Source of the DNA: Gemmatimonadota bacterium
Lineage (GTDB): Bacteria; Gemmatimonadota; Gemmatimonadetes; Gemmatimonadales; Gemmatimonadaceae
DNA length: 42,023 nt
Direction of reading: 5' to 3'
Assembly (NCBI GenBank): GCA_002737115.1
Contig: NSHR01000018.1
Span: 1-42,023 of the forward strand
Part shown: positions 10,404 to 42,023 of the stretch, in pieces
Layout of the letters: the number at the start of each line of letters is the position of its first letter
How positions within the stretch are numbered: the first letter of the stretch is position 1
Position numbers and translations under genes: made by a program
The notes under the pieces: model-generated
Database searches by the model: none
Seen by the model: the letters and a program-made list of their open reading frames with translations, nothing else
Told to the model about the DNA's origin: nothing

Positions 10404-12092
10404 CTACAATACCTTACCATCGTCCTGATCAAACGGGCGATCGCGATTGATCACCGCAATCGCTCCGATCGTGCCCCGGCCCGTAATGAGCGGGGCGATC
10501 ACCATGCGCTGGATCGGCGCGTGCGACTGCACCATCCGTTGGATCGCGGTTTCGGTGTTCCCGTCGTTCAGCACGATCAGCTCGTTCGAGACCACCGAGC
10601 GTCCGATCACACTGCCGATCACGGGCAGATGCACGCCGCTGAGGACATCCGCGCTGCCGATCGAGGCCATGATGTGCAGATACTCGCCGTTGCGCAGCGC
10701 GACGCAGGCACCTTCGACGCCGAGCAGCGAGACCGTATGGCGCAAAATGCGACGCAGCACTTCCCCGAGCCGGAGCGACTCGCCAACGGCGCGCGCCACA
10801 TCGGCCAGCGCCTCGGTCGTGCGACGCTCGCGTTCACTCTCGGCGTATCGGCGGGCGTTGGCCATCGCAGTGACCGCCTGCGACGCCATGGTGGCCAGCA
10901 CTTCCTCGTCTTCCGCCGTGTATACGTCGGCGTTCGTGGAGTGCACGGCGAGCACGGCGAGCAAGCGAATACCCACGCGCATCGGGACCGCGAGCACCGA
11001 CGTCGCCACCCCCGACTCCCCGAGCACGTCGTACATCGAGAGCGGTGGGATGAGTCCGGCGCGTTTACGGGCGCGATCGGCGTCGCGATCGCCCACGCGC
11101 ACCGGACGTCCGGTGCGCGCGACTTCCGCCACGATGCCGTCGCCCAGACGCACCGGACCGCGGGCCCGTTCGACACCGCGAACCATACGCAAGGCGGTGG
11201 TCAGCATGTCGCCGTCGAGATCCGGGATCAGCACCGCCACACCGTCGGCGCGCACGGCCAGCTGGACCTGACGGGTGAGCTCACGCATGATCTCGTGCTC
11301 GTCGAGCGAGCGCGTGAGCGAGGCCCCGGCCTCCTGTAATCGCAGCAGCCGTTGATGACGCCGTTCAGCCAATTCCCGCAGCGCGTCATAGGCCACGCGC
11401 GCCGCCAGATGGCGCACGATCGCACTGAGGTCACAACGGCAGACTTCGCTGGGACGACGACCATCCCGCGGACCGGCCAGCGTCACGATGCCAAGCAGGT
11501 TGCCGTCCGCGCCACGCAGCAGCGCGACAATCAGGTCGGTGGGGAGCCAGGTATCGCCGTCTCCAGCCGGGTGCGCCACGGCGCCGAAGAACTCGCGGGA
11601 GACCCACGGATCGCTGCCGTCGAGCAGGTGCAGATCGCCCACGCGGAACCGCTCCAGATGCGACAAGCGACGACGCCAGACGGCACCGGGCAGCGGCTTC
11701 AGGGCGAGCCCGCTCTGCGAGGTGGTTTCCGGCAGCCCAGCCCGCACTACCAACAGCGGATTCAGCGACGCGTCGCGCAGTGAGATCACCACCCGGTCGA
11801 ACCCCATCCCGTGGAGCCGCTCCGCCGCGACCTGCACGCGAGCGGCCGTCGATTCGGCGCGATCGATCGCGTCGAGAGACTCCGTCAGCGAGAGCTCAGA
11901 CAGTCTGGATGGGGGGGGGCAGCATCGGTGACATATTCCGAGGGAAGACGAACGGGCGACACAAGTCGAAACAAGATTCGACCGAGCCGGTGCGAGCTCA
12001 GAACGTCCAGCTGCGAAAGAAGTCGATGCCGATCTGCGGCGGCGTCTGCTGGAACGTGCGGCTGATCCCCTGTCGGCCGCAGGTCTGCGCAC
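10404..12092 (-). CDS. GAF-domain sensor, 5' part of a probably split GAF/PAS gene; real start uncertain (coding part begins about 11910)
   Basis: Tandem GAF modules; ends ...VINRDRPFDQDDGKVL* where GAF domains normally continue. The next 10 codons read RLADQVAVAI. The N-terminal ~60 aa of the ORF overlap tamB and look non-native. Confidence 0.75.
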   Translation of the reverse strand: MRRPAADRGSAARSSRRRRRSASTSFAAGRSELAPARSNLVSTCVARSSSLGICHRCCPPPSRLSELSLTESLDAIDRAESTAARVQVAAERLHGMGFDRVVISLRDASLNPLLVVRAGLPETTSQSGLALKPLPGAVWRRRLSHLERFRVGDLHLLDGSDPWVSREFFGAVAHPAGDGDTWLPTDLIVALLRGADGNLLGIVTLAGPRDGRRPSEVCRCDLSAIVRHLAARVAYDALRELAERRHQRLLRLQEAGASLTRSLDEHEIMRELTRQVQLAVRADGVAVLIPDLDGDMLTTALRMVRGVERARGPVRLGDGIVAEVARTGRPVRVGDRDADRARKRAGLIPPLSMYDVLGESGVATSVLAVPMRVGIRLLAVLAVHSTNADVYTAEDEEVLATMASQAVTAMANARRYAESERERRTTEALADVARAVGESLRLGEVLRRILRHTVSLLGVEGACVALRNGEYLHIMASIGSADVLSGVHLPVIGSVIGRSVVSNELIVLNDGNTETAIQRMVQSHAPIQRMVIAPLITGRGTIGAIAVINRDRPFDQDDGKVL

Positions 12093-15000
12093 TGGAGCCC
12101 GGCTCGAGGCCGAGCGCCGCGCTCAGTCCCCCCTCGAAGCGCCGCTCCACCTTCACCCCCAGCCCCTGCGCGAACAGGGACAGCGCGTCGCCGCCTCCCG
12201 ACGTTTGGCTGGACAACCCGCACAGCCCCGTGCTGAAGGTGAAGTACGTATTTCGGGCAATTTGACCGCCGACTCCGACACGAGTAGAGGCGAGGATGCC
12301 GAGGCCATTCTCGCGCAGATTGGCGGCATCCCCGGGATTGAGGGCCGTTGGCTCCACTTGCACCACGTCGAAACGGCCGCCAGCCAAACGGCTCGACAGA
12401 TAGCTGCCCGCTAAACGGAGGGCGAGCGTCGCCCCCTGCTCAGCATACGGCGTACCCAACAAGGCGTACGCCGGCTCACCGGTCACGAGATAGCTCAACA
12501 GGTCGCTCTCGGGGAGCGGCGGGTTGTCGGCGCTGGACAGGGCCAGGGTGGGACGGTTGATCGTCCCGGCGATGTTCACGCGAACGCGCACGTCCTGCCG
12601 ATTGGAGTTCGGACGCGTCTCGCGGATGGTATGCAGCGCGGTGATATCGAGCGCAGGCTCGAGGTCGGGATCGCCGAAGAAACGCACGAGCCCACGCTCG
12701 ACCTCAAACCCCGGGCGGGCGATGCCGAGGTTGAGCTGATAGGTACCACGCTCCACCGTGAGCGAGTCGGCCAGCGCCAGGCGCGGTACCTGACCGTCGC
12801 GCGCGAGCGCCCGCGTCACGCGGAGCCCACCGCCCAGCTTAAGGTTGGCTTCCGGTGAGCGAAGCCAGACATCGTCGCCGATGCTGACGCGCACGTTGTC
12901 GAGCTGCAGGTTTTGCATGATCGCCCGCGGGGCGGACGGCAGCAGCCCGTTCACACCGAAGCGGGTGGTATCGATAATGTCGAGATTATCGGCGAGATCC
13001 AGCGCGCGACGTTGCGCGAGGGCGCGGATATACACGCGTCCCCGATCGATGCGCACGGCGCCTTGCACGCGAGGCGCATCGCGGGATCCGGACAGCGTGA
13101 TCGGCGTGGTCGTCGTCATCACGATCGACGCCGTTCGCGGCTTGTCCACCGCCTGAAACTCGTGGGCCGCCAGTCGGAGATCGAACGTGGGATTGGCGAT
13201 CTCCCGGATGCCAATCGCCCCGCTGATCCCGATCGAATCCTGCGGGCTGCCAGTCGTCGCACGGATGCGGCGAATCAGAATGCTGTCGCCGAAGAGTCCG
13301 ATGTCGGCGCGCGCGTGGTCAAGCCGGATGCCGAGATTGTCGAGCGACAGTGAGGCGCTATCGAGCCGGACCTCACCACGGAATCGAGGACGATCCCACG
13401 TACCGGTGAGCGCCACGTCGGTGAACAACGTACCGCGGGCGCGCGTGACGTCGGGAAACACCGACTCGAGCAACGTGAGGTCGGCTTGTGCGGTCGCAAT
13501 GCGACCGGTCAGCGGCTCGTTGAGTTGACGCGTCCGGTTGCCCATGAGGGCGAGGTCGAGGGGCAACGAGGCGGAGGCCTGCAGCGCCGGCTTGCCACCC
13601 AGTCGCAACGCGCCCTCGACATTCAAGCGCAGCGAATCGTAGTGCGCGGTGGCGAAGAGATCGCCGAAGCGGACGCGACCGGCGACGGCATCACGCAAGT
13701 CGACCGTTCCATCGATGCGTGGCTGTTCCCGCGTGCCACGCAGGGCAAGGGTGGCCGACGCGGTTCCGCGCGTGAGCCCCGAGGTGCGCAGCAGACGACC
13801 GATGTCGGCGAGCGCGACGCGATCGGCATCGAGGCGACCGGTCACGACGCCACCCGCCGCCAGTCCGCCACGCATCGCGATGCGACCGGTGTCAGTGTGC
13901 TGCAGCACCAGCGAGTCGAGCGAGCCCAAGGTGCCGTTCGCGCCGGGCATGAAGCGCAGCATGGCCGGCGCCACCAGCGTGAAACCGCGCGGACGCGCCA
14001 AGGCGCTGTCCACACGCAGGGTGAGCGTGTCGATGTTGACGACCGTGGAGTCGCCGTTCCGCGCCACGCCACCGGCCATCGCCACACGCGATTCCGACGA
14101 CGTGCGCATCTGCACCCCGAATCGTTCGGCCAGACCGCCGCGGAGGGTAGACTGCCCGGCGGCCGAGGCGATGTCGATCCCGGCGAACTGTGCCGAGTCC
14201 ATCGTGGCCGAGAGCGCGCCATTCGCCGCGCGCAACAGATCACGCACCGCGAGATCGACCGATGCCCGCTGCGCGCGCGACGTAGCGACGTGCACGTCGC
14301 GGGCATCGCCACGGAGCCGCAGATCGAGTCCGCGCGGGTCGAGCGTATCGATCGAGCCAGAGAGCTGTGCGGACAGTTCGATCGAACCGCGCAACGTGTC
14401 GCCGGCCAAGACGAACGCGCGCGTGGTGGAGTCAGTCGGCGAGAGCCACGGCCGCAGTCCACCCAGCGAGTCGACGATCATCGCAATCGAGAGCGAATCG
14501 CGCCGCGCCGCCGTGATCCCGAGACCGCCCTGTGCGGTGAGTCGCACCGCCGAGCTTTCGATCGTGAGCGTATCGACGCGCACGTGCCCGGAGTCGAAGA
14601 ACACCACCGCAGTGCCGCCGAAGAGCCGCGCATCGGCCACCCGTGAGAATTGATCCACCGTCGCGCGCAACGAGCCGCGCACCGTCTCGATGGTAGACGC
14701 GCTCAGGTCGACCGTGCCCAGCATCGAGAGCGAGGTGATTGGGTACCGATTGTCACCGAGTAGATTCTGCAGATTACCGCCACGCACGCGCCATTGTCCG
14801 GTGGCGCCCATCTCCGGCTCGAACGCGTCAGCGCGGCCAACGAACGAGATCTCGCCGCCTTCGCCCGCGAGTGTGGTCTGCACGTTGAACTGCTCGGCCA
14901 TACCCGCGGCTTTAATGCGACCCACCGCCGAACCGCGCAGCGGCAACGACGGATAGGAGCGGGAGAGCGTGGTGTACGAAAGTGGCGCGGCCTGCATGTC

Positions 15001-16632
15001 CACGTCGAATTTCACGCCTTCGGTCACCAGCGTAAAATGCCCATCGCCGGTGAATCGTGACGGCTGACCGGGACCGTCCACCAGCTCGATGTCGGCCTTG
15101 GAGAAGAAGGCATCGTACCAGAGCGAGTCGAGGCGCATGGTGCCGCGCGCGAAGCCGTTCAGGTCAGGGAACAGCGGATTCACGAAGCGCGGCGTGCGCA
15201 TGTCGAGCTGCTGAATCTCGAGATCGACGCCTTTCAGGATCGCCTCAGCCGGCGTATAGATGTCCACCGTACCACGCGCCCTGGCGCGCGAGATCGCCCC
15301 GGGCACGTGCGTGTCGGAAAATGTGAGCTGCGCGTCGTCCAGCTGCCAATTGGTGATCGGCCCGCCGCGTGCCATCACCCGACCCGTAACGTTGCCCTGC
15401 CAATCATACGGGAATGGCTCGCCGTTGAACCAGCGCAGCAACTCGGTGTTGGCTGGCAGCAATGCGAGATCGACGTCGTTCACCTTAAGCACAGGACCGC
15501 CCACGGCGAACGTCATGTTGCCCTTGATCCGCGATCGCAGCGCGCGGGCATCCATATCACGCAGGCCGTACTCGATGATCGCAAGGTTCGCAGGATCGTT
15601 CTTGATCGTGATGAACGTGCTGCCACCACCGGTCCAGGGCAGCGTGGCATTGATCCACGACATGTCGGCCATCGCCACGCTGTCGCCTTTGAGCTTCACG
15701 TCGTACCGCACCGGCAGACCACTGCCCCACACGACCTTGGCCGTGCCGTGCGCGCCGGAGTTGGCCAGCTGAAAGCTCACGCCGTCGATCCAGAGGGAGT
15801 CGGCGACTTTCCGCACGGTCCCCTTCATGTTGCGGAACCAGAACGGCGGATAGATCCACACCACGTCCATCTTTTGCATCGCCAGCCTCATGCCCGCCGA
15901 ATCGGGATCGGCGATGCGTGAAGGGCCGAGGGCGAGCGAACCGCGCACGAATCGATACACGCGCACGAACCGATTGCCGTCGCGACGGACCTCACCGTCG
16001 AGTCGCGTGAGATTGAAGGTGAGCGCGCTATCGCGCTTCGCCCCCTTGAGCGTATCGGATAAGACCCATGGCAAGCGCGCCGTGAACGTCAGTTCGCGGA
16101 TCGTCGTGGTATCGATGACGATGTACTCCCCGAACCGACTGGCCGACTTCGCCGACAGGGCACCGGTTTTCCGAAGCGCCCGCTTCCAGTTCCACTCGTC
16201 ATTGCCGTAGTCGATCATCGTGATCGATGGCCGCATGATCTCGAGGGACTTAATCACGATGCGCCGATCGAGCAGGTCGCGCAGATCATAGGTGGCGCGG
16301 ATCGGACCGGTACTCAGGAACGGCGTGCCGTCGGGAGCGCGGATGTCGATCGAGTCGATCGTGATATCGGTGAACAGCGTGCCGCTCACCTTCCCCACGT
16401 AGAGTGTGCCGGGGATAGCACGGCCGATCACCGGGACCAACGCGCGCAGGATTACGGCGCGCCCCCGATCGGTTTGCGTAAGCGCAGCCACCCCGCCCAC
16501 GGCCAGCGCCATGAGCGAGAGCAACACCGCCGCCGTCGCCAGCACCACCGTCCGCCGCCGGAGACGACGCGGCCCGCGCGTGTCGGTGACTGGCCGTTCG
16601 ACCGCGGCGTTCGGCGTCGTGTCGTTGCGCAT
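11998..16632 (-). CDS. tamB: TamB/YtfN-like translocation and assembly module protein
   Basis: 1544 aa with one N-terminal TM, AsmA/TamB-like repeats and a conserved C-terminus (NPPLPESDLLSYLVTGEP...); starts on the stop of the Omp85 gene. Confidence 0.9.
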   Translation of the reverse strand: MRNDTTPNAAVERPVTDTRGPRRLRRRTVVLATAAVLLSLMALAVGGVAALTQTDRGRAVILRALVPVIGRAIPGTLYVGKVSGTLFTDITIDSIDIRAPDGTPFLSTGPIRATYDLRDLLDRRIVIKSLEIMRPSITMIDYGNDEWNWKRALRKTGALSAKSASRFGEYIVIDTTTIRELTFTARLPWVLSDTLKGAKRDSALTFNLTRLDGEVRRDGNRFVRVYRFVRGSLALGPSRIADPDSAGMRLAMQKMDVVWIYPPFWFRNMKGTVRKVADSLWIDGVSFQLANSGAHGTAKVVWGSGLPVRYDVKLKGDSVAMADMSWINATLPWTGGGSTFITIKNDPANLAIIEYGLRDMDARALRSRIKGNMTFAVGGPVLKVNDVDLALLPANTELLRWFNGEPFPYDWQGNVTGRVMARGGPITNWQLDDAQLTFSDTHVPGAISRARARGTVDIYTPAEAILKGVDLEIQQLDMRTPRFVNPLFPDLNGFARGTMRLDSLWYDAFFSKADIELVDGPGQPSRFTGDGHFTLVTEGVKFDVDMQAAPLSYTTLSRSYPSLPLRGSAVGRIKAAGMAEQFNVQTTLAGEGGEISFVGRADAFEPEMGATGQWRVRGGNLQNLLGDNRYPITSLSMLGTVDLSASTIETVRGSLRATVDQFSRVADARLFGGTAVVFFDSGHVRVDTLTIESSAVRLTAQGGLGITAARRDSLSIAMIVDSLGGLRPWLSPTDSTTRAFVLAGDTLRGSIELSAQLSGSIDTLDPRGLDLRLRGDARDVHVATSRAQRASVDLAVRDLLRAANGALSATMDSAQFAGIDIASAAGQSTLRGGLAERFGVQMRTSSESRVAMAGGVARNGDSTVVNIDTLTLRVDSALARPRGFTLVAPAMLRFMPGANGTLGSLDSLVLQHTDTGRIAMRGGLAAGGVVTGRLDADRVALADIGRLLRTSGLTRGTASATLALRGTREQPRIDGTVDLRDAVAGRVRFGDLFATAHYDSLRLNVEGALRLGGKPALQASASLPLDLALMGNRTRQLNEPLTGRIATAQADLTLLESVFPDVTRARGTLFTDVALTGTWDRPRFRGEVRLDSASLSLDNLGIRLDHARADIGLFGDSILIRRIRATTGSPQDSIGISGAIGIREIANPTFDLRLAAHEFQAVDKPRTASIVMTTTTPITLSGSRDAPRVQGAVRIDRGRVYIRALAQRRALDLADNLDIIDTTRFGVNGLLPSAPRAIMQNLQLDNVRVSIGDDVWLRSPEANLKLGGGLRVTRALARDGQVPRLALADSLTVERGTYQLNLGIARPGFEVERGLVRFFGDPDLEPALDITALHTIRETRPNSNRQDVRVRVNIAGTINRPTLALSSADNPPLPESDLLSYLVTGEPAYALLGTPYAEQGATLALRLAGSYLSSRLAGGRFDVVQVEPTALNPGDAANLRENGLGILASTRVGVGGQIARNTYFTFSTGLCGLSSQTSGGGDALSLFAQGLGVKVERRFEGGLSAALGLEPGSSAQTCGRQGISRTFQQTPPQIGIDFFRSWTF

Positions 16633-18872
16633 CAGAAGGCCTGCCCGATCCAGATGCTCGGATTGAGACGCCGCACGAAGCCCGCGCCCCGCGCCGGGCG
16701 GAAGCTGTTGGGACAGCCACCGGCCTCCTGCGCCGGCGGCGCACCGCTGGTGCCCGAGGCGTTCACCGCGAGCCCGTTACCGGGGCTCACGCAATACAGC
16801 GGCGCAACGCCCGCTTGCAGTGGCGCATTGTAGTAGGCCGCACCCGCCGGCAGCCGATAGCCATTGTAGCCCAGATCCACCCGTATCGCGCCGAACGGCG
16901 ACGCGATGCGAATGCCCAGGCCGGGCGTGATCTTTACCGACGGCCCTTCGTCGCTCAGCGTTGCCGCCGGCGAGGCCGCGCCGCGATTCCACAGCTTGCC
17001 GGCGTCGGCGAACAGCGCGATCTGCAGCAGCTTCGGCGCGAGCGGGCTCGGGAACTGTGCTTCGACATTGCCGACAATCAACGTGTTGCCGCCGGTGGGA
17101 ACCACGCGCTCAGTCACCGACGTGGAGTCCGCCCGGTAGAACGTCCGTCCGTTCGCACTCACCGTGTCGTAACGGCTCACGATGTACACCGCCGGCCCAA
17201 GTTCATTCTGCCGGAAGCCGCGCACCGTGGTCGGACCACCCGCGTACAGCCGCTCTTGTGGCGGAATGAACCCGCCCGTTCTCGGCGTCGTGCCGCCACC
17301 GTACACCACGCCACCGCGCACATGCGTGACCAGCGTAGCGCCACCACCCAGCGCGCGATACCACGACACATCACCGGTACCGCGATTGAACTGTTGCGAA
17401 CGATCAGAGCCGATCAGCCTGCTGGCGTGCCGCACGTTCAACCGGACCGTGCTGCCCCCGGTGGGACGCAGGGGATCGTTCACCCGCGCACGCACGACGG
17501 CGTATTCGAGCGCCGCCAGCCGATTGTTGCGCTGTAAAAACGTGCGTGACTCGTTGTCGCAGGCGTTGAACACCGCGCAGAAGAACGCCGGCTCCGCCTC
17601 GGTACGACCCAGCTCCACCTGATAGCTCAACGTGCTCGGCACGCGCACGAGCGGGAATGGGTCGGTCACCGACAGCACGCCGCCAATTGGCGTGCGACGC
17701 AGGAACGCCTTGTACTCGGAGAGCGTGGAGCTGAACAGCGTGATTGACGGCACGCGCGCCTGATTCGCCCGTACGGGCTGCCGGACGGTCATCGACGTGT
17801 AGTAGTTCAGCGTGCGGCTGTACGGATCGCTTTTGGCCTGCCCTTGGCAGAGATTCGGCGCGCCGTCGAGCGGATCGCCGATGCCGATCTTGCTGACGCG
17901 GCCGGTGAGTTCGAGCCGCTGCGCGACGGGGAGGAAGTCACGATCGGTAAACGAGCCCTGCATCCGGAAACAATCGAGCGTGGCCCACCCCAGTCCACCA
18001 CGCGCCGCCCACTGCGCGCCTTCCACCAGGCGCACCACGAGGTTGACGATGGAATCGCCAGCCGGCTGGATGCTGTCGGGCTGCAAGTCGACCCGTTGAA
18101 AGGCGTCGGTCTGATAGAGATTGCGCTGCGCGTCGATGATCGCGCGCGCTGAATACCAGTCGCCGGTTGTGAGCGCCATCGTGCGCCGGACGGTGGCGTC
18201 GGATACCCGTCGGTTATCATCGCCGGCGTCCACCTCGAGCGCGATGCGCCCGAGCTTGGCCCGCACCCCCGGTACCACCGACACTTCGACATCGGCGGTG
18301 CGCAACACCGTGTTCGTGGTGTAGGCCACCAGCGCTTCGGCCTGCGGCCAGCCCTTGTTGCGCAGCCGTCGTACGAGCGTGTCGCGTCCGGCGTCCAGCG
18401 CGCCGCGATCGAATACGCCACCCACGGCCAGCGGGAAATCACGCGCCGCGTCGCGCACCTCGGCGTTGAGATCAAGCCCCCGCAGCGCGAGCGCGGTAAC
18501 CCGCATCGGCTCGCCTTCTCGAATCGTGAACGTGATCTCGATCACACCAGGCTTCACGGCGGTCACGGTCGTGTCCACCGTGACATCGAGAAATCCGCGC
18601 CGACGATACAAGGTCTCGAGTCGTTGGACGTCGCGCGAAAACTCCACCGGGTCGAGGCAGCGCCGCTCGCCGACAACAGGTAATCCGGCCAAGGACGACG
18701 GGGTGGTGGCCACGGTGGACGCCAGCGCGACCGCGGCATACTCGCGATTTCCGACGAATCTGAGCGCACGGACCTCGCGGTCGCCGCGATCACAGGAAAG
18801 ATCCTGGGCGGCGGCCGGACGCGCGACCGAAAGTGCTGCGAGCGCGAAGAGGAGATGGACGAGAGGTCGCAC
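16632..18872 (-). CDS. tamA: Omp85-family outer membrane protein with POTRA domains (TamA/BamA-like)
   Basis: Signal peptide, POTRA repeats (VRALRFVGNREYAAVALAS, LETLYRRRGFLDVTV), barrel end with RLYAGGPTTVRGF and GLGIRIASPFGAIRVDLGY. Confidence 0.92.
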   Translation of the reverse strand: MRPLVHLLFALAALSVARPAAAQDLSCDRGDREVRALRFVGNREYAAVALASTVATTPSSLAGLPVVGERRCLDPVEFSRDVQRLETLYRRRGFLDVTVDTTVTAVKPGVIEITFTIREGEPMRVTALALRGLDLNAEVRDAARDFPLAVGGVFDRGALDAGRDTLVRRLRNKGWPQAEALVAYTTNTVLRTADVEVSVVPGVRAKLGRIALEVDAGDDNRRVSDATVRRTMALTTGDWYSARAIIDAQRNLYQTDAFQRVDLQPDSIQPAGDSIVNLVVRLVEGAQWAARGGLGWATLDCFRMQGSFTDRDFLPVAQRLELTGRVSKIGIGDPLDGAPNLCQGQAKSDPYSRTLNYYTSMTVRQPVRANQARVPSITLFSSTLSEYKAFLRRTPIGGVLSVTDPFPLVRVPSTLSYQVELGRTEAEPAFFCAVFNACDNESRTFLQRNNRLAALEYAVVRARVNDPLRPTGGSTVRLNVRHASRLIGSDRSQQFNRGTGDVSWYRALGGGATLVTHVRGGVVYGGGTTPRTGGFIPPQERLYAGGPTTVRGFRQNELGPAVYIVSRYDTVSANGRTFYRADSTSVTERVVPTGGNTLIVGNVEAQFPSPLAPKLLQIALFADAGKLWNRGAASPAATLSDEGPSVKITPGLGIRIASPFGAIRVDLGYNGYRLPAGAAYYNAPLQAGVAPLYCVSPGNGLAVNASGTSGAPPAQEAGGCPNSFRPARGAGFVRRLNPSIWIGQAF

Positions 18873-33102: not shown

Positions 33103-34632
33103 ATGCGCTCTTCCCATATCGACGTCACCGGCGGTCCCTCGGATCGCCCGCCGCACGAACTTCAGTCCAGACCAGTGTCCAGACTCCCCGAGACCCTCGG
33201 CGCGCTCAAGCGCTCCAGCTACGCCACGAATCGCCCGAAGTCCGTCAAAGACGAGATCCGGCGTAACCTGATTGCCCGCCTGCAGGCCGGCGGCCCGCTG
33301 TTCCGTGGTGTCCTTGGCTACGAAGACACCGTGATGCCCCAAATCGTGAACGCGCTCCTCGCGCGCCACAACTTCATCCTGCTCGGCCTGCGTGGCCAGG
33401 CGAAGTCGCGTATCCTCCGCGCGCTGGGCACCCTGCTCGACGAGCAGATGCCGGTCGTGGCCGGCAGTGAAGTGAACGACGATCCGTTCGCCCCGATCTC
33501 GAAGTACGCCAAGCAGCTCATCCAGGAGCACGGCGACGACACCCCGATTGGCTGGGTGTCCCGCGATCAGCGCTACGTCGAAAAGCTCGCGACGCCCGAT
33601 GCCACCATCGCCGACATCATCGGCGACGTGGACCCCATCAAGGCCGCCCGCGGTGGACACATCCTCGGCGACGAACTCACAATTCACTACGGCATGCTGC
33701 CGCGCGCCAACCGCGGCATCTTTGCGTTGAACGAACTCCCCGACCTCGCCGGTAAGGTACAGGTGGGTCTGTTCAACATCATGCAGGAAGGCGACGTGCA
33801 GATCAAAGGCTACCCGGTGCGCCTCGCACTCGATGTCCTGCTCTGCTTCACCGCCAATCCCGAAGACTACACGGCCCGCGGCAAGATCATCACGCCGCTC
33901 AAGGACCGCATCGGCAGCGAGATCATCACCCACTACCCCGAAAGCGTCGAACTCGGCGTCGAGATCACGCGCCAGGAAGCGTGGACGCAACGCACCGGCG
34001 GCGTGCAAATCCGCGTACCCGACCTGATCGAGGAAGTGGTGGAGCGGATCGCCTTTGAAGCACGTGACGATAAGCGCATCGACAAGCGTTCCGGCGTGTC
34101 GCAGCGCATGCCGATCACCGCGATGGAAAGCGTGGTGTCGAACGCCGAGCAGCGCGCCCTGCGCAACGGCGATACTGAAGCCGTACCGCGCGTGGCCGAC
34201 GTGTACGCCGCCCTGCCCGCGATCACCGGCAAGATTGAGCTCGAGTACGAGGGAGAACTCGTGGGCGGCGCCACGATCGCCAAGGATCTCATTCGCCGCG
34301 CCTGCGATGCGACCCTGCGTGAACGCGCCGGGGATATCGACGCGGAAGACGTGATCATGTGGTTCGACGGCGGTGGCGCACTGCAGGTGGCCGACGAAAT
34401 CGCGATGAATCTCGTGCGCCAGGGCTTCGAAGCGGTGCCGGGTCTCGTGCAAACGGTGATCGCGCTCGGACTCGCGAAAAAGGGCGACGATGCGATGATC
34501 GTGGTGGCCTGCGAGCTGGTCCTCGAGGCGCTGGTGGCGCGACGGAAGATTTCACGATCGGACCAAGGGACGTACGGGAAGGCGGAACGAGAGGCGCGCC
34601 GACCGAAGGGACAGCAGGATTACTTTGGCTGA
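33103..34632 (+). CDS. MoxR/magnesium-chelatase-like AAA ATPase
   Basis: FILLGLRGQAKSRILRAL Walker A, RANRGIFALNELPDLAGKVQVGLFNIMQEGDVQIKGY, NPEDYTARGKIITPLKDRIGSEI sensor region. Confidence 0.88.
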   Translation: MRSSHIDVTGGPSDRPPHELQSRPVSRLPETLGALKRSSYATNRPKSVKDEIRRNLIARLQAGGPLFRGVLGYEDTVMPQIVNALLARHNFILLGLRGQAKSRILRALGTLLDEQMPVVAGSEVNDDPFAPISKYAKQLIQEHGDDTPIGWVSRDQRYVEKLATPDATIADIIGDVDPIKAARGGHILGDELTIHYGMLPRANRGIFALNELPDLAGKVQVGLFNIMQEGDVQIKGYPVRLALDVLLCFTANPEDYTARGKIITPLKDRIGSEIITHYPESVELGVEITRQEAWTQRTGGVQIRVPDLIEEVVERIAFEARDDKRIDKRSGVSQRMPITAMESVVSNAEQRALRNGDTEAVPRVADVYAALPAITGKIELEYEGELVGGATIAKDLIRRACDATLRERAGDIDAEDVIMWFDGGGALQVADEIAMNLVRQGFEAVPGLVQTVIALGLAKKGDDAMIVVACELVLEALVARRKISRSDQGTYGKAEREARRPKGQQDYFG

Positions 34633-34997: not shown

Positions 34998-37181
34998 ATG
35001 CCCTCTGTGCCCCGTCGTCCCGTACGGCTGATCGTGGCTGCCGGCGCCCTCGGTCTCTTAGGCCCTCAGGTCGCCCAGGCCCAAACCCAGACCGACTCGC
35101 TTGCTCGGCGCGACAGTCTCGCCCGCTCGCTGGCCCCGTTTGCCGTGCGCGCCACGCGCAGCACGCAGAGCTCCTTTACGGCCCCGCTGGCGATCACGCA
35201 CATCGACAAGTCACAGTTTTCGGCCAAGTCGGGGTTCGGGCTCAACGACGCGCTCGGCAATGTGCCGGGGGTGCTCGTGCAGTCGCGCTACGGCACCAGC
35301 GATGTCCGCATCGCGATCCGTGGCTTCGGTGCCCGTGGCGCCGGTGACCGCAGCAATGCCGGCACCTCCCGCGGGGTGCGCGTGCTGCTGGACGGCATGC
35401 CGGAAACCGAACCGGATGGCCGCACGTCGTTCGACAACATCGATCTCGCCGCCGCGGAAGGGATCGATGTGATCCGCTCGAACGCCAGCGCGCTGTGGGG
35501 CAATGCCGCCGGTGGTGTAATCAGCGTGTCCACCGTGCCCGTGATCGATCGTCCGTTCGCCACCATGCAGTACCAGAGCGGGAGCTACGGCCTGCAGCGC
35601 TACATCGCGCAAACCGGCACCCCCATCGGCACCAAGGGCGGGGTGGCCTACGCCACCTTCGTCAACACGAACTTCGACGGCTGGCGGGTGAATTCCGACG
35701 CGCGTCGCGTGCTGGTGAACACCGGTATCGTTGCTCCCGTGGGCGACAAGACGCAAATGCGCATCCACCTGCTCGGCGCCAACAATCTGTTCCACGTGCC
35801 CGGCCCACTCTCGGCCGATCAAGTCGCGTCCAATCCGCGGCAAGCCAACGCCACCTACGACGGCCGCGACGAGCGTCGATTCAACCGCCTCGCCCGACTC
35901 GGCGCCAGCGTGGAGCATGCGCTCGACGACAAGTCGAGCGTGTCCGTGATGGCGTACATCAACCCCAAGTATCTCCAGCGCTCCGAGCGCGGCACGTTCC
36001 GCGACTTCACGCGCTACCATGGTGGTGCGAACGCGGCGTATAACCGACAGGACGTGGTATCGCCCACGTTCACCAACCGCTTCACGGCCGGTATCGATCA
36101 GGCGTATCAGGACGGCGCCGTGCTGTTCTACAACCTGAGCGCCACCAACGGTCGCGGCACGACGCTGCGCGACAACAAAAAAGAAGGCGCCTACAACGGC
36201 GGCATCTTCCTCGAAGACGAATTCACGCTCAACAACACGCTGGGCATCACGCTCGGCCTGCGCGGCGACGCGATTGCGTACTACTACAAGAACTTCCTGA
36301 ATCCGAAAACCGACGCGAGCCGCACCTTCTCGCAACTCACGCCGAAGATCGGCGCGTCATGGCGCCTGTCGAAAACGCATACGCTCTACGCCAACGTGGG
36401 CGGCGGTGTCGAAGCCCCCGCCGGCAACGAAACCGATCCCGCCGGCACCTTTGGACAGGACACGGTCACGGCCCTCAATCCGCTGCTTGAGCCGATCCGC
36501 TCGTACACATACGAAGTGGGCACCAAGCAGATCTTTATGGTCGGCGATGGCTCGGGCATAGTGACCAGCGTGTCGTACGACGCGGCCGCGTACCTCACGA
36601 ACGTGCGCAATGAGATCGTGCCTTACCGCGGCGGACGGTTCTACTTCATGGCCGGCCGCGCCCGTCGCACTGGCGCCGAGATGGCCGTGACCGCGCTCGC
36701 CAAAGGCGACCTGCGCTTCGAGAATTCCCTCACGCTCTCGCGCAACAGGTACACTGACTACGTGGTCGACTCCGTGCACTACGGCAAGCCGGGCGCGACC
36801 GCCGACTACAGCGGCAATCGCATCGTCGGCATCCCCGACTGGTTTTACGGCTCCAACGCCACGTGGTCACCGTCCAAGGCGCCCCTCGGTCTCGCGGCGC
36901 AGGTCGGCGTGCAAGGCACCGGCGGCTACTGGGCGGACGACGCGAACGCCGTACGGGTAGCGGAGGCACATATCGTGAGCGCCAGCCTTCGCGCCGATCG
37001 CCTCGTGCGGGTGGGCGACGCGACCGTGAAGGGGTTCCTGACGATCGAGAATCTCACCGATCGCCGCTTCATTGGCTCGGCGTTTCTCAACCCGGACATC
37101 GTGAATGGGAAAGCGCTGGCGTTCGAGCCGGGCATGCCGAGAACAGTGATGCTGTCGTTCTCGGTTTCGCGGGGGCGCTGA
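34998..37181 (+). CDS. TonB-dependent outer membrane receptor (FecA-like)
   Basis: Signal peptide, plug domain (LNDALGNVPGVLVQSRYGTSDVRIAIRGFGARGAGDRS; VLLDGMPETEPDGR; IDVIRSNASALWGNAAGGVISVST), barrel and C-terminal aromatic-rich strand. Confidence 0.94.
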   Translation: MPSVPRRPVRLIVAAGALGLLGPQVAQAQTQTDSLARRDSLARSLAPFAVRATRSTQSSFTAPLAITHIDKSQFSAKSGFGLNDALGNVPGVLVQSRYGTSDVRIAIRGFGARGAGDRSNAGTSRGVRVLLDGMPETEPDGRTSFDNIDLAAAEGIDVIRSNASALWGNAAGGVISVSTVPVIDRPFATMQYQSGSYGLQRYIAQTGTPIGTKGGVAYATFVNTNFDGWRVNSDARRVLVNTGIVAPVGDKTQMRIHLLGANNLFHVPGPLSADQVASNPRQANATYDGRDERRFNRLARLGASVEHALDDKSSVSVMAYINPKYLQRSERGTFRDFTRYHGGANAAYNRQDVVSPTFTNRFTAGIDQAYQDGAVLFYNLSATNGRGTTLRDNKKEGAYNGGIFLEDEFTLNNTLGITLGLRGDAIAYYYKNFLNPKTDASRTFSQLTPKIGASWRLSKTHTLYANVGGGVEAPAGNETDPAGTFGQDTVTALNPLLEPIRSYTYEVGTKQIFMVGDGSGIVTSVSYDAAAYLTNVRNEIVPYRGGRFYFMAGRARRTGAEMAVTALAKGDLRFENSLTLSRNRYTDYVVDSVHYGKPGATADYSGNRIVGIPDWFYGSNATWSPSKAPLGLAAQVGVQGTGGYWADDANAVRVAEAHIVSASLRADRLVRVGDATVKGFLTIENLTDRRFIGSAFLNPDIVNGKALAFEPGMPRTVMLSFSVSRGR

Positions 37182-37501: not shown

Positions 37502-39961
37502 TTACTGCTGTTTCCCCACGCAAAGCGTCGGCGCCGCCGCACCGACCGCAAACTGCAGAATCGACAGCACATCACCCGAGTCCAGCACGCCGTTACAGTT
37601 CGCGTCCGCGCGCGGCATCGGGTTCGGCGCGCTGGCCGGCAGCACGCCCACCAGCGCCTGTTGCGCCAGTGATGCATCAAACGCGTTCACGGCACCATCC
37701 GCGTTCACATCGCCGCGCAGCACGCTCGCTCCTGCCACGATAGTGGTCGCCCACAACCCACGACCATACGTGCTGGCGTACAGGTTACCCGTGGCCGCCT
37801 GGTACACCAGGTCCAGCACACGCGCATTCGGGAACCCCTGATTGGCCGCGCTCCACGACGCGCCGTTGTCGGTGGACTCATAAATGCCCACGTCGGCCGC
37901 GGCAAATATTCTCGACGTGCCCGGTACCATCACAACGGCGTTGAACGGAATGTCCGGCAGTGAACCGGTCAGGTTCGCCCAGGTCACGCCAAAATCATCG
38001 GTGGCGTACACGTGTCCCGTGCCCGTACCGGAGTGCGAGATTACCGCGCGACCGGGCACCGCTGCGTCGGGGGCGATATCGGTGACGGCGCGGTTCGGCA
38101 GCGTGCTCGAAACCACCGTAAACGTTGCCCCCGCGTCTTGCGACAGCTGCACATTCCCGTCGCTGGTGCCGACCCAGATGATCCGCGAGTCAACCGGTGA
38201 AACCGCCAGACTGGTAATCGTGCCGGTGCCGCGCGTGAGGTCTCCGGTGAGGATGCCCCACTGCGCGCCCTCGTTCACCGTGCGCCACAGTCGATACGTG
38301 GCGTAGTACAGCGTGGCCGAGTTGAGCGGGTCGATGATCATTGGCGACAGGAATGCCTTCCGGTCGGTGCTGGTGAATCCGCGCTGTACCTGCGAGATGC
38401 TCGTGCCGAGCGGATTGCGTGTGACGCGCACGATGAAACCGGTGCCGTAGCTGGTGGTCCAAAACACGTTCGAGTTCGTAGGGCTGAAGGCGTTCCATCC
38501 GCCATCGCCGCTCGGCGCCGACATCGTCCAGAAACCTGAGCCAAAGCCCCAAAGCGAACTGTTATCCTGCAGCCCGCCGGCAATAAAATCGGGGATCGTG
38601 GGGTGCACCGCGATGCCCGGGTAGAACTGGGTAACCGAGATGTTCGTGTTGCGACTCACCCAGCTGTTGCCGCGATCGTACGACGCGTGCACGCCACCAT
38701 CGCAGCCGCCCACGATCACATTCGGATCGCTCGGCGCGTACTCGAAGGCATGCCAGTCCACGTGCAAGTCGTAGGCGATTAGCGAGAAACTCTGCCCGCC
38801 ATTGCGCGACCGGTACATGCGCGATCCGCCCAGGATCACCGTGTTGGCATCCTGCGGGTCGACTTCGAGTACGAGGTCATACGTGCCCTGCGTGCCGAAA
38901 TCGAGTCGCGACTGCCCGCCGTACACACCTTGCGCCGTGAGCACCGTAGGCGTGGCACTGGCGCCGTCAAGACGCACCAGCTTGTCCATCCGTGAACTCA
39001 CCACTTCCACCGCCCACACCGAATTCGGCGTGATGGGGGACACCGCCAGCGAGATGCGCTGTACCGTAGTGCCGGTGGCGTACACCTGCAACCAGGTGGC
39101 GCCGCGATCGGTGCTGCGGTACACGCCGTTCGCGGTCGTACCTGTCCCGGCACGCGCTGCCCACACGATGTTGTCGTTGGCGGGGTCGAACTCCACATCA
39201 GTCACGAAGCCCGTAAGCACCGTGCTCCAAGCGGAACCGCTGTTGGTGCTGCGATGCAGCCCGTTGTTGGCCGCGTACAGCACCACGCTCGTGTTCTGCG
39301 TGCCGGCCAGGCTCGGTGCCACCCGAATACGATAGGCGCGGGTGTTCTGCGAACCGTTCACCGGCGCCAGCACGCCGGCCCCGTTGATCTCCGTCCACGA
39401 AGTGCCGCCGTCGAAGGAGCGCAGCAACCCACAGCCGTTCGACTGCGCGGGCTCGCCCGTACCCACGTATACGATGTTCGGATTCACCGGATCGATCGCG
39501 ATCGAACCGGTGTTCAGCGAACACTGATTGTCGGTGAGCGGAGTCCACGTGGCGCCGCCGTTGGTCGTGCGCCATACGCCACCACTCGCCGAGCCGGCGT
39601 ACACGATGCTGGGGTTGGTGGGGTGAATGGCAATGGTGCGAATGCGACCACCGTCGGCGTTTGGCGACGAACCATAAAAGCCGCTGGTCTGGAAGCCGAA
39701 CGGCCCCACCGAGCGCCATGGCGCTACCTGCACGCTGGACGCCGCCCCCGATGCGGCGCGCGCCGGCGCGCCGAAGGCCGCGGCTCGTGCGGCGTACACG
39801 GGATTTTGTGTGTATTCACCGAATGGATACGCCCGCAGCTGCTCCATCCATTCGCGACGCACGTCGAAGCCCGCCTCGCGCTGCTCTTCCACCTGCGCCT
39901 GCACCGCCACCGGCATCGCCGCCAGCAGCGCCAACGCGAGGTACGTCCGTGAGGTGCTCAC
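37502..39961 (-). CDS. Secreted Asp-box (BNR/sortilin-like) beta-propeller protein with C-terminal dockerin-like domain
   Basis: Signal peptide; about nine Asp-box motifs (TTNGGATWTPL, SFDGGTSWTEI, STDRGATWLQV, STDNGASWSAA); C-terminal GDVNADGAVNAFDASLAQQALVG and RADANCNGVLDSGDVLSILQFAVG duplicated Ca-loops. Confidence 0.88.
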   Translation of the reverse strand: MSTSRTYLALALLAAMPVAVQAQVEEQREAGFDVRREWMEQLRAYPFGEYTQNPVYAARAAAFGAPARAASGAASSVQVAPWRSVGPFGFQTSGFYGSSPNADGGRIRTIAIHPTNPSIVYAGSASGGVWRTTNGGATWTPLTDNQCSLNTGSIAIDPVNPNIVYVGTGEPAQSNGCGLLRSFDGGTSWTEINGAGVLAPVNGSQNTRAYRIRVAPSLAGTQNTSVVLYAANNGLHRSTNSGSAWSTVLTGFVTDVEFDPANDNIVWAARAGTGTTANGVYRSTDRGATWLQVYATGTTVQRISLAVSPITPNSVWAVEVVSSRMDKLVRLDGASATPTVLTAQGVYGGQSRLDFGTQGTYDLVLEVDPQDANTVILGGSRMYRSRNGGQSFSLIAYDLHVDWHAFEYAPSDPNVIVGGCDGGVHASYDRGNSWVSRNTNISVTQFYPGIAVHPTIPDFIAGGLQDNSSLWGFGSGFWTMSAPSGDGGWNAFSPTNSNVFWTTSYGTGFIVRVTRNPLGTSISQVQRGFTSTDRKAFLSPMIIDPLNSATLYYATYRLWRTVNEGAQWGILTGDLTRGTGTITSLAVSPVDSRIIWVGTSDGNVQLSQDAGATFTVVSSTLPNRAVTDIAPDAAVPGRAVISHSGTGTGHVYATDDFGVTWANLTGSLPDIPFNAVVMVPGTSRIFAAADVGIYESTDNGASWSAANQGFPNARVLDLVYQAATGNLYASTYGRGLWATTIVAGASVLRGDVNADGAVNAFDASLAQQALVGVLPASAPNPMPRADANCNGVLDSGDVLSILQFAVGAAAPTLCVGKQQ

Positions 39962-40485
39962 TTGATCACCGCCGTGGGCAGCACGGTGGTACGGCCACGT
40001 AGGTCCGTCGCATCCGACAGGTGCAGCTCACTCAGTTGCAGCGACAATGTTGACGCGGCGTTCGCAGTACGCGCCACGAACCGCACGCGCGCGAACACGT
40101 CGGTGGTGAACCCGGTGGCATGCGCCGCCGCGATCATCACCCGCCCGCGAGCCGCATGCACGGCGCGCAACGCGCCGTCGCTAGGGCTGGCATCAGCGAG
40201 GTAGCGCAGCTGGGTGCTGTCGTAGGCCACGGCAGCGGTCATACTCACCGGCTTCGCCTGTATACTGGCCACGTTGTCGGCGCCAAGCAGTCCGCTCACG
40301 CGCACATCCACCGTAATCACACTGTCGCCAACTGCCGGCGGCGTGAACACCAGCTGCGCGGTAGGCTGTGTATTCGGCAGCGGGCTCACCGTGCCATCAC
40401 CCAGCGTCTCTCGGCACGCCGATATCACCAGCGCGCTACTGAGCGCGGCCAGCACGCGTACCGCTGCGGTCATATTGCGTCTCAC
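39958..40485 (-). CDS. Lipoprotein with cohesin-like domain
   Basis: Lipobox VISAC; DSVITVDVRVSGLLG...MTAAVAYDSTQLRYLA...GRVMIAAAHATGFTTDVFARVRFVA...STLSLQLSELHLSD resembles the cohesin/CBM2-3-like beta sandwich. 4-nt coupled overlaps on both sides. Confidence 0.7.
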   Translation of the reverse strand: MRRNMTAAVRVLAALSSALVISACRETLGDGTVSPLPNTQPTAQLVFTPPAVGDSVITVDVRVSGLLGADNVASIQAKPVSMTAAVAYDSTQLRYLADASPSDGALRAVHAARGRVMIAAAHATGFTTDVFARVRFVARTANAASTLSLQLSELHLSDATDLRGRTTVLPTAVIK

Positions 40486-42023
40486 TTGATCACCACCGGG
40501 TATTGCAGCGCCGTCGCGTTGCCGACGAGCGATTGCTGATTGAGGTCGAGCAGCTCGACGTGTCGAAGCACGAACTGACTGGAGCCAGTTAACATAGGAA
40601 TGAAATCAAAGCGACCAAGGGTGATCACTCCCGTCATTCCCGTCGCACTGGCAATCGAGATGCGCGTGGTGCCGGAGCTGTTGTCGGTGATGATCACCGG
40701 ACCACCGACGGTGCCAGGCACGGTGGTCGTAAGTCGGAGCATGGCCGGCGTGGCCTGCTCGGTGGGCCAGGTGAACACGAACTGTGCCGCGCCGACCGTG
40801 GCCCCGCGCGTGTCGAGTGACAGCGTGACCGAGAACGGTGTGAGTCGCGTGTAATCGAAACGCGCGACGTCGGCGCGTAGCACTGGGCCGGTGGTGCGCG
40901 TGACGTTCAGGAACACCGAATCGAGCGCACCGCCGTTCACCGCAGTCTGCGCCACGATCCAGGCCTGACCACCAAGGCGCGCCGTGATCCGTCCATCGGC
41001 GGCGACGGTCGCGATTGACGGTGATCGACTCGCGTACGTGATCGGCGCCGTGATCACCGCACCTTCACTGCTGAGGATCACCGGCGTGAGCTGCAGCGTG
41101 CCGTTCACATCGAGCTCGTTCACCTTTTCGGTGGCGAGTCCGTACCGCAACGAGATCGACGAGGCCACGTTGAAGGTGACCGGCAGATTCATAGTGGGCG
41201 CGTTGCCCGACGTGAGCGAGACGTTGGCCAGATACGTATTGGTGTTGAGCGCCGACGGATCGGCGCGCAGCGCGAGTCGGGCGGGGTTCGTGAGCCACGT
41301 GGCCGACAGCCAACCGCTGGCCCCGGTATACGTCACGCTCGTCGTGAGACTCGCCACCGGCGTGCAGCTCCCGTTCACGTCGGTGATCGCAATAGTGTCC
41401 ACCACCGCGCTGCGCAGAGCGAAGCCCGCCAGCGTGCGCGACGGCACCGAGAGCGCCAGCAGCGGCGACCGTGCGGCGTCGCACGGGGTGATCGACAGCG
41501 GCAGCGACGGCAGTCCTGACACCGAGAAGAGCAGCGATCGCACGCCACCCACTCCCGTGACGCCAAGATTGGTGAACGTGACCACGCCATTCGTGGCCGG
41601 CGCCGTCGCTCCCGTGAGCGTACCACCACCAGAGGCAATCGTGGCCGTCACCGTGAGCGCAGCAGTCGTCGCCAGATTGCCGCCGTTGTCGAGCACGTTG
41701 AGTACCGGCTGCGTCGTGAACGCCGAATTCAGGCCGCCGCCCGCCGGCGGTAGGCGGAACGCCAGCGATGCCGCTGGTCCAGCGCTCACGTTGAACGTGA
41801 CGGTGTTCACCGCGGGAAGTCCGGTGGCCGAGAAGGCCAGCGAACGCGGTCCGATCAGTCCTGACAGCGTGAGTGGCGAAAAGGTGGCGAGCCCCTGCAC
41901 CGAGGTGACCGTGGTCGCACCGCCGATCGTGCCCACACCGCTCGCGAAGCTCACAGTCACCGGCACACTGGCCGCGGTGACGAGATTGTCGAGGGCATCG
42001 CGCACCTCGACCACCGGCGACGC
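40482..42023 (-). CDS. Large surface protein with Ig-like repeats and a C-terminal cohesin-like domain; N-terminus beyond window edge
   Basis: Repeated Ig/Big-type units (PVTVSFASGVGTIGGATTVTSVQGLATFSPLTLSGLIGPRSLAFSATGLP; LTVTATIASGGGTLTG...). C-terminal SVTLSLDTRGATVGAAQFVFTWP...GTTRISIASATGMTGVITLGRFDFIP is cohesin-like. Frame open towards the window end. Confidence 0.75.
   Translation of the reverse strand, partial: ASPVVEVRDALDNLVTAASVPVTVSFASGVGTIGGATTVTSVQGLATFSPLTLSGLIGPRSLAFSATGLPAVNTVTFNVSAGPAASLAFRLPPAGGGLNSAFTTQPVLNVLDNGGNLATTAALTVTATIASGGGTLTGATAPATNGVVTFTNLGVTGVGGVRSLLFSVSGLPSLPLSITPCDAARSPLLALSVPSRTLAGFALRSAVVDTIAITDVNGSCTPVASLTTSVTYTGASGWLSATWLTNPARLALRADPSALNTNTYLANVSLTSGNAPTMNLPVTFNVASSISLRYGLATEKVNELDVNGTLQLTPVILSSEGAVITAPITYASRSPSIATVAADGRITARLGGQAWIVAQTAVNGGALDSVFLNVTRTTGPVLRADVARFDYTRLTPFSVTLSLDTRGATVGAAQFVFTWPTEQATPAMLRLTTTVPGTVGGPVIITDNSSGTTRISIASATGMTGVITLGRFDFIPMLTGSSQFVLRHVELLDLNQQSLVGNATALQYPVVIK

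Follow-up and report, generated by a model that had tools for sequence, protein, structure and literature searches.

A dockerin and two cohesin-like domains in one operon

Non-cellulosomal cohesins and dockerins have been catalogued for years, mostly without an assigned role. Could a small operon at the end of a Gemmatimonadota contig, which encodes both kinds of module, use them to hold a secreted protein at the cell? The window analysed here is the entire contig (C10; GenBank NSHR01000018.1; 42,023 nucleotides) of a genome that is 57% complete, and the operon comprises three genes on its minus strand. Gene 1 (40482..42023, its 5′ end truncated at the contig end) encodes an immunoglobulin (Ig)-repeat protein with a C-terminal cohesin-like domain; gene 2 (39958..40485) encodes a 175-residue lipoprotein with a second cohesin-like domain; and gene 3 (37502..39961) encodes an 819-residue Sec-exported cargo protein that ends in a dockerin. 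We argue that the operon is likely to specify a dedicated non-cellulosomal cohesin-dockerin tether, in which the exported protein would be held by lipid-anchored cohesins. An earlier, sequence-only reading of this DNA had arrived at the same gene order, strand and coordinates, all of which agree with the open reading frame list. The 4-nt GTGA overlaps that it described can be read at both junctions, where the stop of gene 1 meets the start of gene 2 (40482..40485) and the stop of gene 2 meets the start of gene 3 (39958..39961).

The two dockerin-like loops proposed for the C-terminus of gene 3 proved to belong to a true type I dockerin domain (37514..37714, minus strand). The domain scores 27.7 bits against Pfam Dockerin_1 (PF00404; cut-off 22.9) and matches solved cellulosomal dockerins in the PDB, namely 2ccl (the XynY dockerin), 1ohz and 2y3n. 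Its two repeats are DVNADGAVNAFD (residues 751-762; 37676..37711) and DANCNGVLDSGD (residues 786-797; 37571..37606), both with intact calcium-binding loops whose acidic or Asn ligands follow a pattern common to the homologues. All 48 parsed dockerins had Asp at positions 1 and 12 of the loop, a count to which the parsing pattern contributes, as it demands Asp at the first of these positions and almost demands it at the second. The second loop contains Cys789, which is invariant among the aligned propellers together with a Cys at residue 814; among 49 dockerins of the group, 34 show a DxNC...C pattern, and the two residues may form a lineage-specific disulfide.

Profile and fold comparisons assign the sandwich domains to cohesins

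Single-sequence searches with the window's two sandwich domains gave no match to Pfam Cohesin above cut-off, and PF00963 found no match in the window's whole genome. We therefore relied on profile and fold comparisons. Homologous domains were collected by iterated searching, and 54 of them were aligned into a profile. PF00963 was matched by 16 of these 54 homologues (best, 6e-10), and homologous domains in four genomes (G005, G016, G077 and G074), located beside dockerin genes or in the operon's equivalent gene, passed the curated Pfam Cohesin cut-off. When the profile was compared with the PDB, the top ten matches were all cohesins (best E value, 3.5e-5), headed by 2xdh, a non-cellulosomal cohesin from Archaeoglobus fulgidus that was also among the fold matches. 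The domain of gene 1 (40494..40892, minus strand) was located by iterated hidden Markov model searching as a member of profile A1. The domain of gene 2 (39967..40377, minus strand) was modeled with AlphaFold2 as a beta-sandwich from five sequences (predicted local distance difference test score, pLDDT, 71; predicted template modeling score, pTM, 0.64), and cohesins took the first 14 places among its Foldseek matches in the PDB, with a best template modeling score of 0.63 by query length. The cohesin-like folds of the sequence-only reading are thus upheld by profile and by fold, and the structure search that it had named as a way for the idea to fail placed the sandwich inside the cohesin family. 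An Ig or carbohydrate-binding module (CBM) identity was rejected, cohesins ranking first in both kinds of search, and the single-sequence Pfam miss reflects a detection threshold that was not reached.

The same reading had called for a lipid-anchored cohesin-like protein. The gene 2 product carries the lipobox VISAC. The gene 1 product is probably a lipoprotein as well, because a full-length homologue (locus L020) that is 97% identical to it has the lipobox LAAAC at its start. For gene 1 the anchor is predicted through homologues only. Most cohesin proteins encoded separately have a lipobox.

The operon recurs across Gemmatimonadota

Used as a single query, the gene 2 protein matched 15 of the 119 genomes, in almost every case within the same operon type; one further candidate (G005:C20; E 6e-4) was taken as chance, as the profile does not recover it. 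The cohesin and dockerin operon genes are found together in other genera and families, frequently with 4-nt overlaps, and the check on neighborhood conservation suggested with the sequence-only reading thus showed an operon that recurs across the phylum. Cohesin-like domains and dockerins occurred together in 34 genomes, dockerins only in 5, cohesins only in 7 and neither in 73 (Fisher p 1e-17). The cohesin profile was built near dockerins, and genomes outside the profile were therefore examined separately. In these, 24 of the 25 dockerins among the matches listed have a cohesin-like domain at most 10 kb away, in a tally made by hand that leaves out one distant class; the lone exception begins 10 bases from a contig end. 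Eleven of 55 dockerin matches in relatives had no cohesin within 10 kb. Two of these, in G020 and G011, are on short contigs that cut the operon, and most of the others are partial one-loop matches. At lax thresholds, the complete genomes G029 and G028 have one full-length dockerin and two significant cohesin-like domains, all in the operon. Genome-wide searches of these two and of G026 found no further full-length dockerin or significant cohesin-like domain, the other dockerin matches in G029 and G028 being short one-loop fragments. The window's own genome has one full dockerin.

Several loci have other arrangements. Three other genera have a small extra gene (L023:7313-7792, L024:10564-11046 and L025:10406-10795; 130-161 residues) as a fourth member between the cohesin and propeller genes, and its product has a lipoprotein-like start and no Pfam match. 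Longer arrays at L095 (G077:C1:448000-466000), G272:C161 and G299:C160 encode large proteins in which a cohesin and a dockerin occur together, with parts of beta-helix or propeller type after them in L095; these arrays could represent larger assemblies. In another class of the phylum, six genomes of family f11 (G119, G120, G121, G123, G124 and G125) have a dockerin-rich system, with at least 12 to 21 dockerins each and at most one cohesin-like match among the matches listed.

The cargo of gene 3 is a GH74-fold propeller that is probably inactive

The gene 3 product starts with a signal-like Sec-type N-terminus that ends AVQAQ, with Q23 invariant in 18 aligned homologues, and continues into a propeller part (37739..39724, minus strand). 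The pattern [ST]x[DN]xGxx[WFY] finds ten Asp boxes in gene 3, compared with a mean of 0.18 and a maximum of 3 in 1000 shuffles, so the earlier estimate of about nine was a fair one. Foldseek matches 1-25 of the AlphaFold2 model (pLDDT 80.9; pTM 0.82) were all xyloglucanases of glycoside hydrolase family 74 (GH74), which have a tandem propeller fold. The alignments to GH74 cover the position of the first catalytic Asp and do not extend to the second. At the covered position, D35 of 1sqj, the first catalytic Asp of GH74, aligns with Ala125 of gene 3, and the aligned homologues also have a residue other than Asp there. With Ala125 at this position, the propeller probably lacks GH74 activity, and an active xyloglucanase was dropped as a candidate for its function. 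The sequence-only reading had recognized no glycoside hydrolase in the operon; the fold of one is present, as the 25 best Foldseek matches attest, while the absence of its activity probably holds. Among named relatives, the closest to the propeller (80% identity) comes from a Gemmatimonadota metagenome-assembled genome, and there is weak similarity to the Ycf48 family.

A proposed constant mount with variable cargo

The dockerin cargo in related operons includes a Peptidase_S8 subtilase, an M6-type metalloprotease with PPC domains and an extra cohesin of its own, Beta_helix proteins and a PD40 propeller. In a scan of propeller relatives outside the phylum, 48 of the 74 tails were a Por_Secre_tail; a dockerin closed 4, a number that includes the two Gemmatimonadota loci. 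Por_Secre_tail was not found in eight genomes of the window's group. Judged from these sequences, the dockerin occupies the place where propeller relatives elsewhere keep an attachment tail. Since different cargo types swap under the dockerin, and the same propeller elsewhere carries Por_Secre_tail, the cohesin-dockerin mount appears to be the constant part of the system and the cargo its variable part.

Two loci in other phyla have related components. A propeller relative from Armatimonadetes JP3_11 (L183, 9911-12322) has a dockerin-like repeat at its end. In an uncultured Bacteroidales (L188, 834-13372), two dockerin-bearing proteins, one of them related to the window's propeller, flank a 1133-residue protein whose four repeats are cohesin-like by weak matches.

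A probable tether at the cell envelope and its alternatives

In the model that we favor, a short lipoprotein and a second one with an Ig-repeat stalk would present one cohesin domain each. Gene 3 would yield a Sec-exported GH74-fold propeller, probably catalytically dead, whose C-terminal dockerin would plug into one or both cohesins, and the propeller would then stay attached to the cell envelope and not diffuse away. Across the phylum, the pair would serve as an interchangeable mount in which the cargo swaps while the cohesin lipoprotein and the dockerin stay. Sequence, fold and gene neighborhood all lend good support to a non-cellulosomal assembly; cohesin-dockerin binding, its calcium dependence, the choice of cohesin and the side of the outer membrane are our inferences. 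A more specific version, in which the short lipoprotein catches exported cargo at the membrane, the Ig-stalked one displays it and the whole acts as a phylum-wide route replacing the type IX tail, is speculative and rather unlikely.

Several points weigh against the tether. The window's domains had no single-sequence Pfam match, the cohesin model is of medium confidence and comes from a five-sequence alignment, and binding between the partners is a prediction. Once shared ancestry is taken into account, dockerin and cohesin distances correlate weakly (partial Mantel r 0.18, p 0.06), and with partial Mantel p values of 0.06 and 0.23, co-evolution beyond ancestry is not taken as support. The model does not explain by what route cargo or cohesins would cross the outer membrane, and because the genome is 57% complete, more partners could be absent from the assembly.

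The sequence-only reading had proposed a surface assembly. A conserved coupled operon, probable lipoproteins and a non-cellulosomal character stand; the location is less secure. Signals of the Sec and lipoprotein types are the only ones seen in these proteins, and the complex might therefore form in the periplasm, the dockerin propeller being retained by lipoproteins that either face inward from the outer membrane or sit on the inner one. Such a complex would depart from the tether in location and role only; the propeller might, for instance, help in assembly or serve as a chaperone, as some other Asp-box propellers (Ycf48) do. The weak Ycf48-family similarity and the missing type IX tail are consistent with it. 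However, the cargo of relatives (subtilase, M6-type metalloprotease with PPC, beta-helix) is of kinds that are often extracellular, and propeller relatives elsewhere bear type IX sorting tails; we regard a periplasmic complex as a real possibility, if not a probable one. The modules could also be kin by descent without binding each other, the dockerin being a calcium-stabilized C-terminal cap and the cohesin folds structural ends of the lipoproteins. The residues that follow each loop (positions 10, 11, 17 and 18) depart from the Ser/Thr and Lys/Arg of clostridial type I dockerins; this difference and the weak distance correlation would both suit unpaired modules. Yet co-occurrence and adjacency are very strong, also in genomes outside the profile, the pair is retained while cargo differs, and Asp is constant at loop positions 1 and 12, although the parsing pattern favors both, which together make this account unlikely.

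The remaining alternatives concern the identity of the parts. The GH74 fold might suggest a carbohydrate-degrading mini-cellulosome with the propeller as an active xyloglucanase, but Ala125 at the first catalytic position, the lack of Asp there in aligned homologues, the single full dockerin per genome and the absence of a multi-cohesin scaffoldin in G029 and G028 render this very improbable. Equally, the missing single-sequence Pfam match might indicate generic Ig, CBM or other beta-sandwiches that stand beside a dockerin by chance. As cohesins come ahead of every Ig or CBM match in the profile and fold searches, and the homologous domains of G005, G016, G077 and G074 exceed the Pfam Cohesin cut-off, this explanation is already largely refuted and hardly credible.

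Relation to known systems

Peer et al. 2009 is reportedly the main survey of non-cellulosomal cohesin/dockerin modules. Our literature search found no paper on such modules in Gemmatimonadota, which is no proof of absence. The clostridial cellulosome shares its module families (type I cohesin-dockerin; 2ccl and 1ohz matched) with the window's operon. Unlike the cellulosome, the operon has no multi-cohesin scaffoldin, its two cohesins being on two proteins, and there is no dockerin-tagged set of glycoside hydrolases, with one full dockerin per genome. GH74 xyloglucanases have the same propeller fold as gene 3, but at ~17% identity and with Ala in gene 3 for the first catalytic Asp. Type IX cargo (Por_Secre_tail propellers, mostly from Bacteroidota) resembles gene 3 in having a homologous propeller and a C-terminal attachment-type module, which in gene 3 is a dockerin and not Por_Secre_tail.

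Closer parallels come from archaea, in which non-cellulosomal cohesin-dockerin pairs do bind (PMC9012536, PMC9705933). The A. fulgidus pair (2xdh) belongs, like the window's, to an organism that has no cellulosome; it binds and has been used for attaching proteins to E. coli (PMC9705933). The window's system differs in its diderm host, its two separate cohesin lipoproteins, its overlapping-gene operon and a cargo that varies among relatives. Anaerobic methanotrophic (ANME) archaea also have non-cellulosomal dockerin and cohesin proteins with varied cargo; in some of these a dockerin is combined with as many as five cohesins, and ABC-transporter binding proteins and S-layer proteins also carry dockerins (PMC9012536). 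The window's operon shares the non-cellulosomal setting and the varied cargo, but its lipoproteins bear a single cohesin each, and the operon itself includes one cargo gene.

Here both partners, the sole ones found in some complete genomes, share one small conserved operon with differing cargo, and their function is therefore directly testable in cultured Gemmatimonas. The arrangement suggests a means by which secreted propellers and proteases could be retained in a phylum that has an outer membrane and, apparently, no type IX sorting tails; more generally, it suggests a way to tether secreted proteins to a cell without a cellulosome. It also offers new candidate cohesin-dockerin pairs for engineering.

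Genes near the operon

On the plus strand, the operon is adjoined by genes for a TonB-dependent receptor and a MoxR/chelatase-like ATPase (34998-37181 and 33103-34632), which also adjoin it in the same-genus loci L019 and L021. On the minus strand of the window, neighboring Omp85 (POTRA plus barrel) and TamB-like genes (11998-18872) form an outer-membrane assembly pair.

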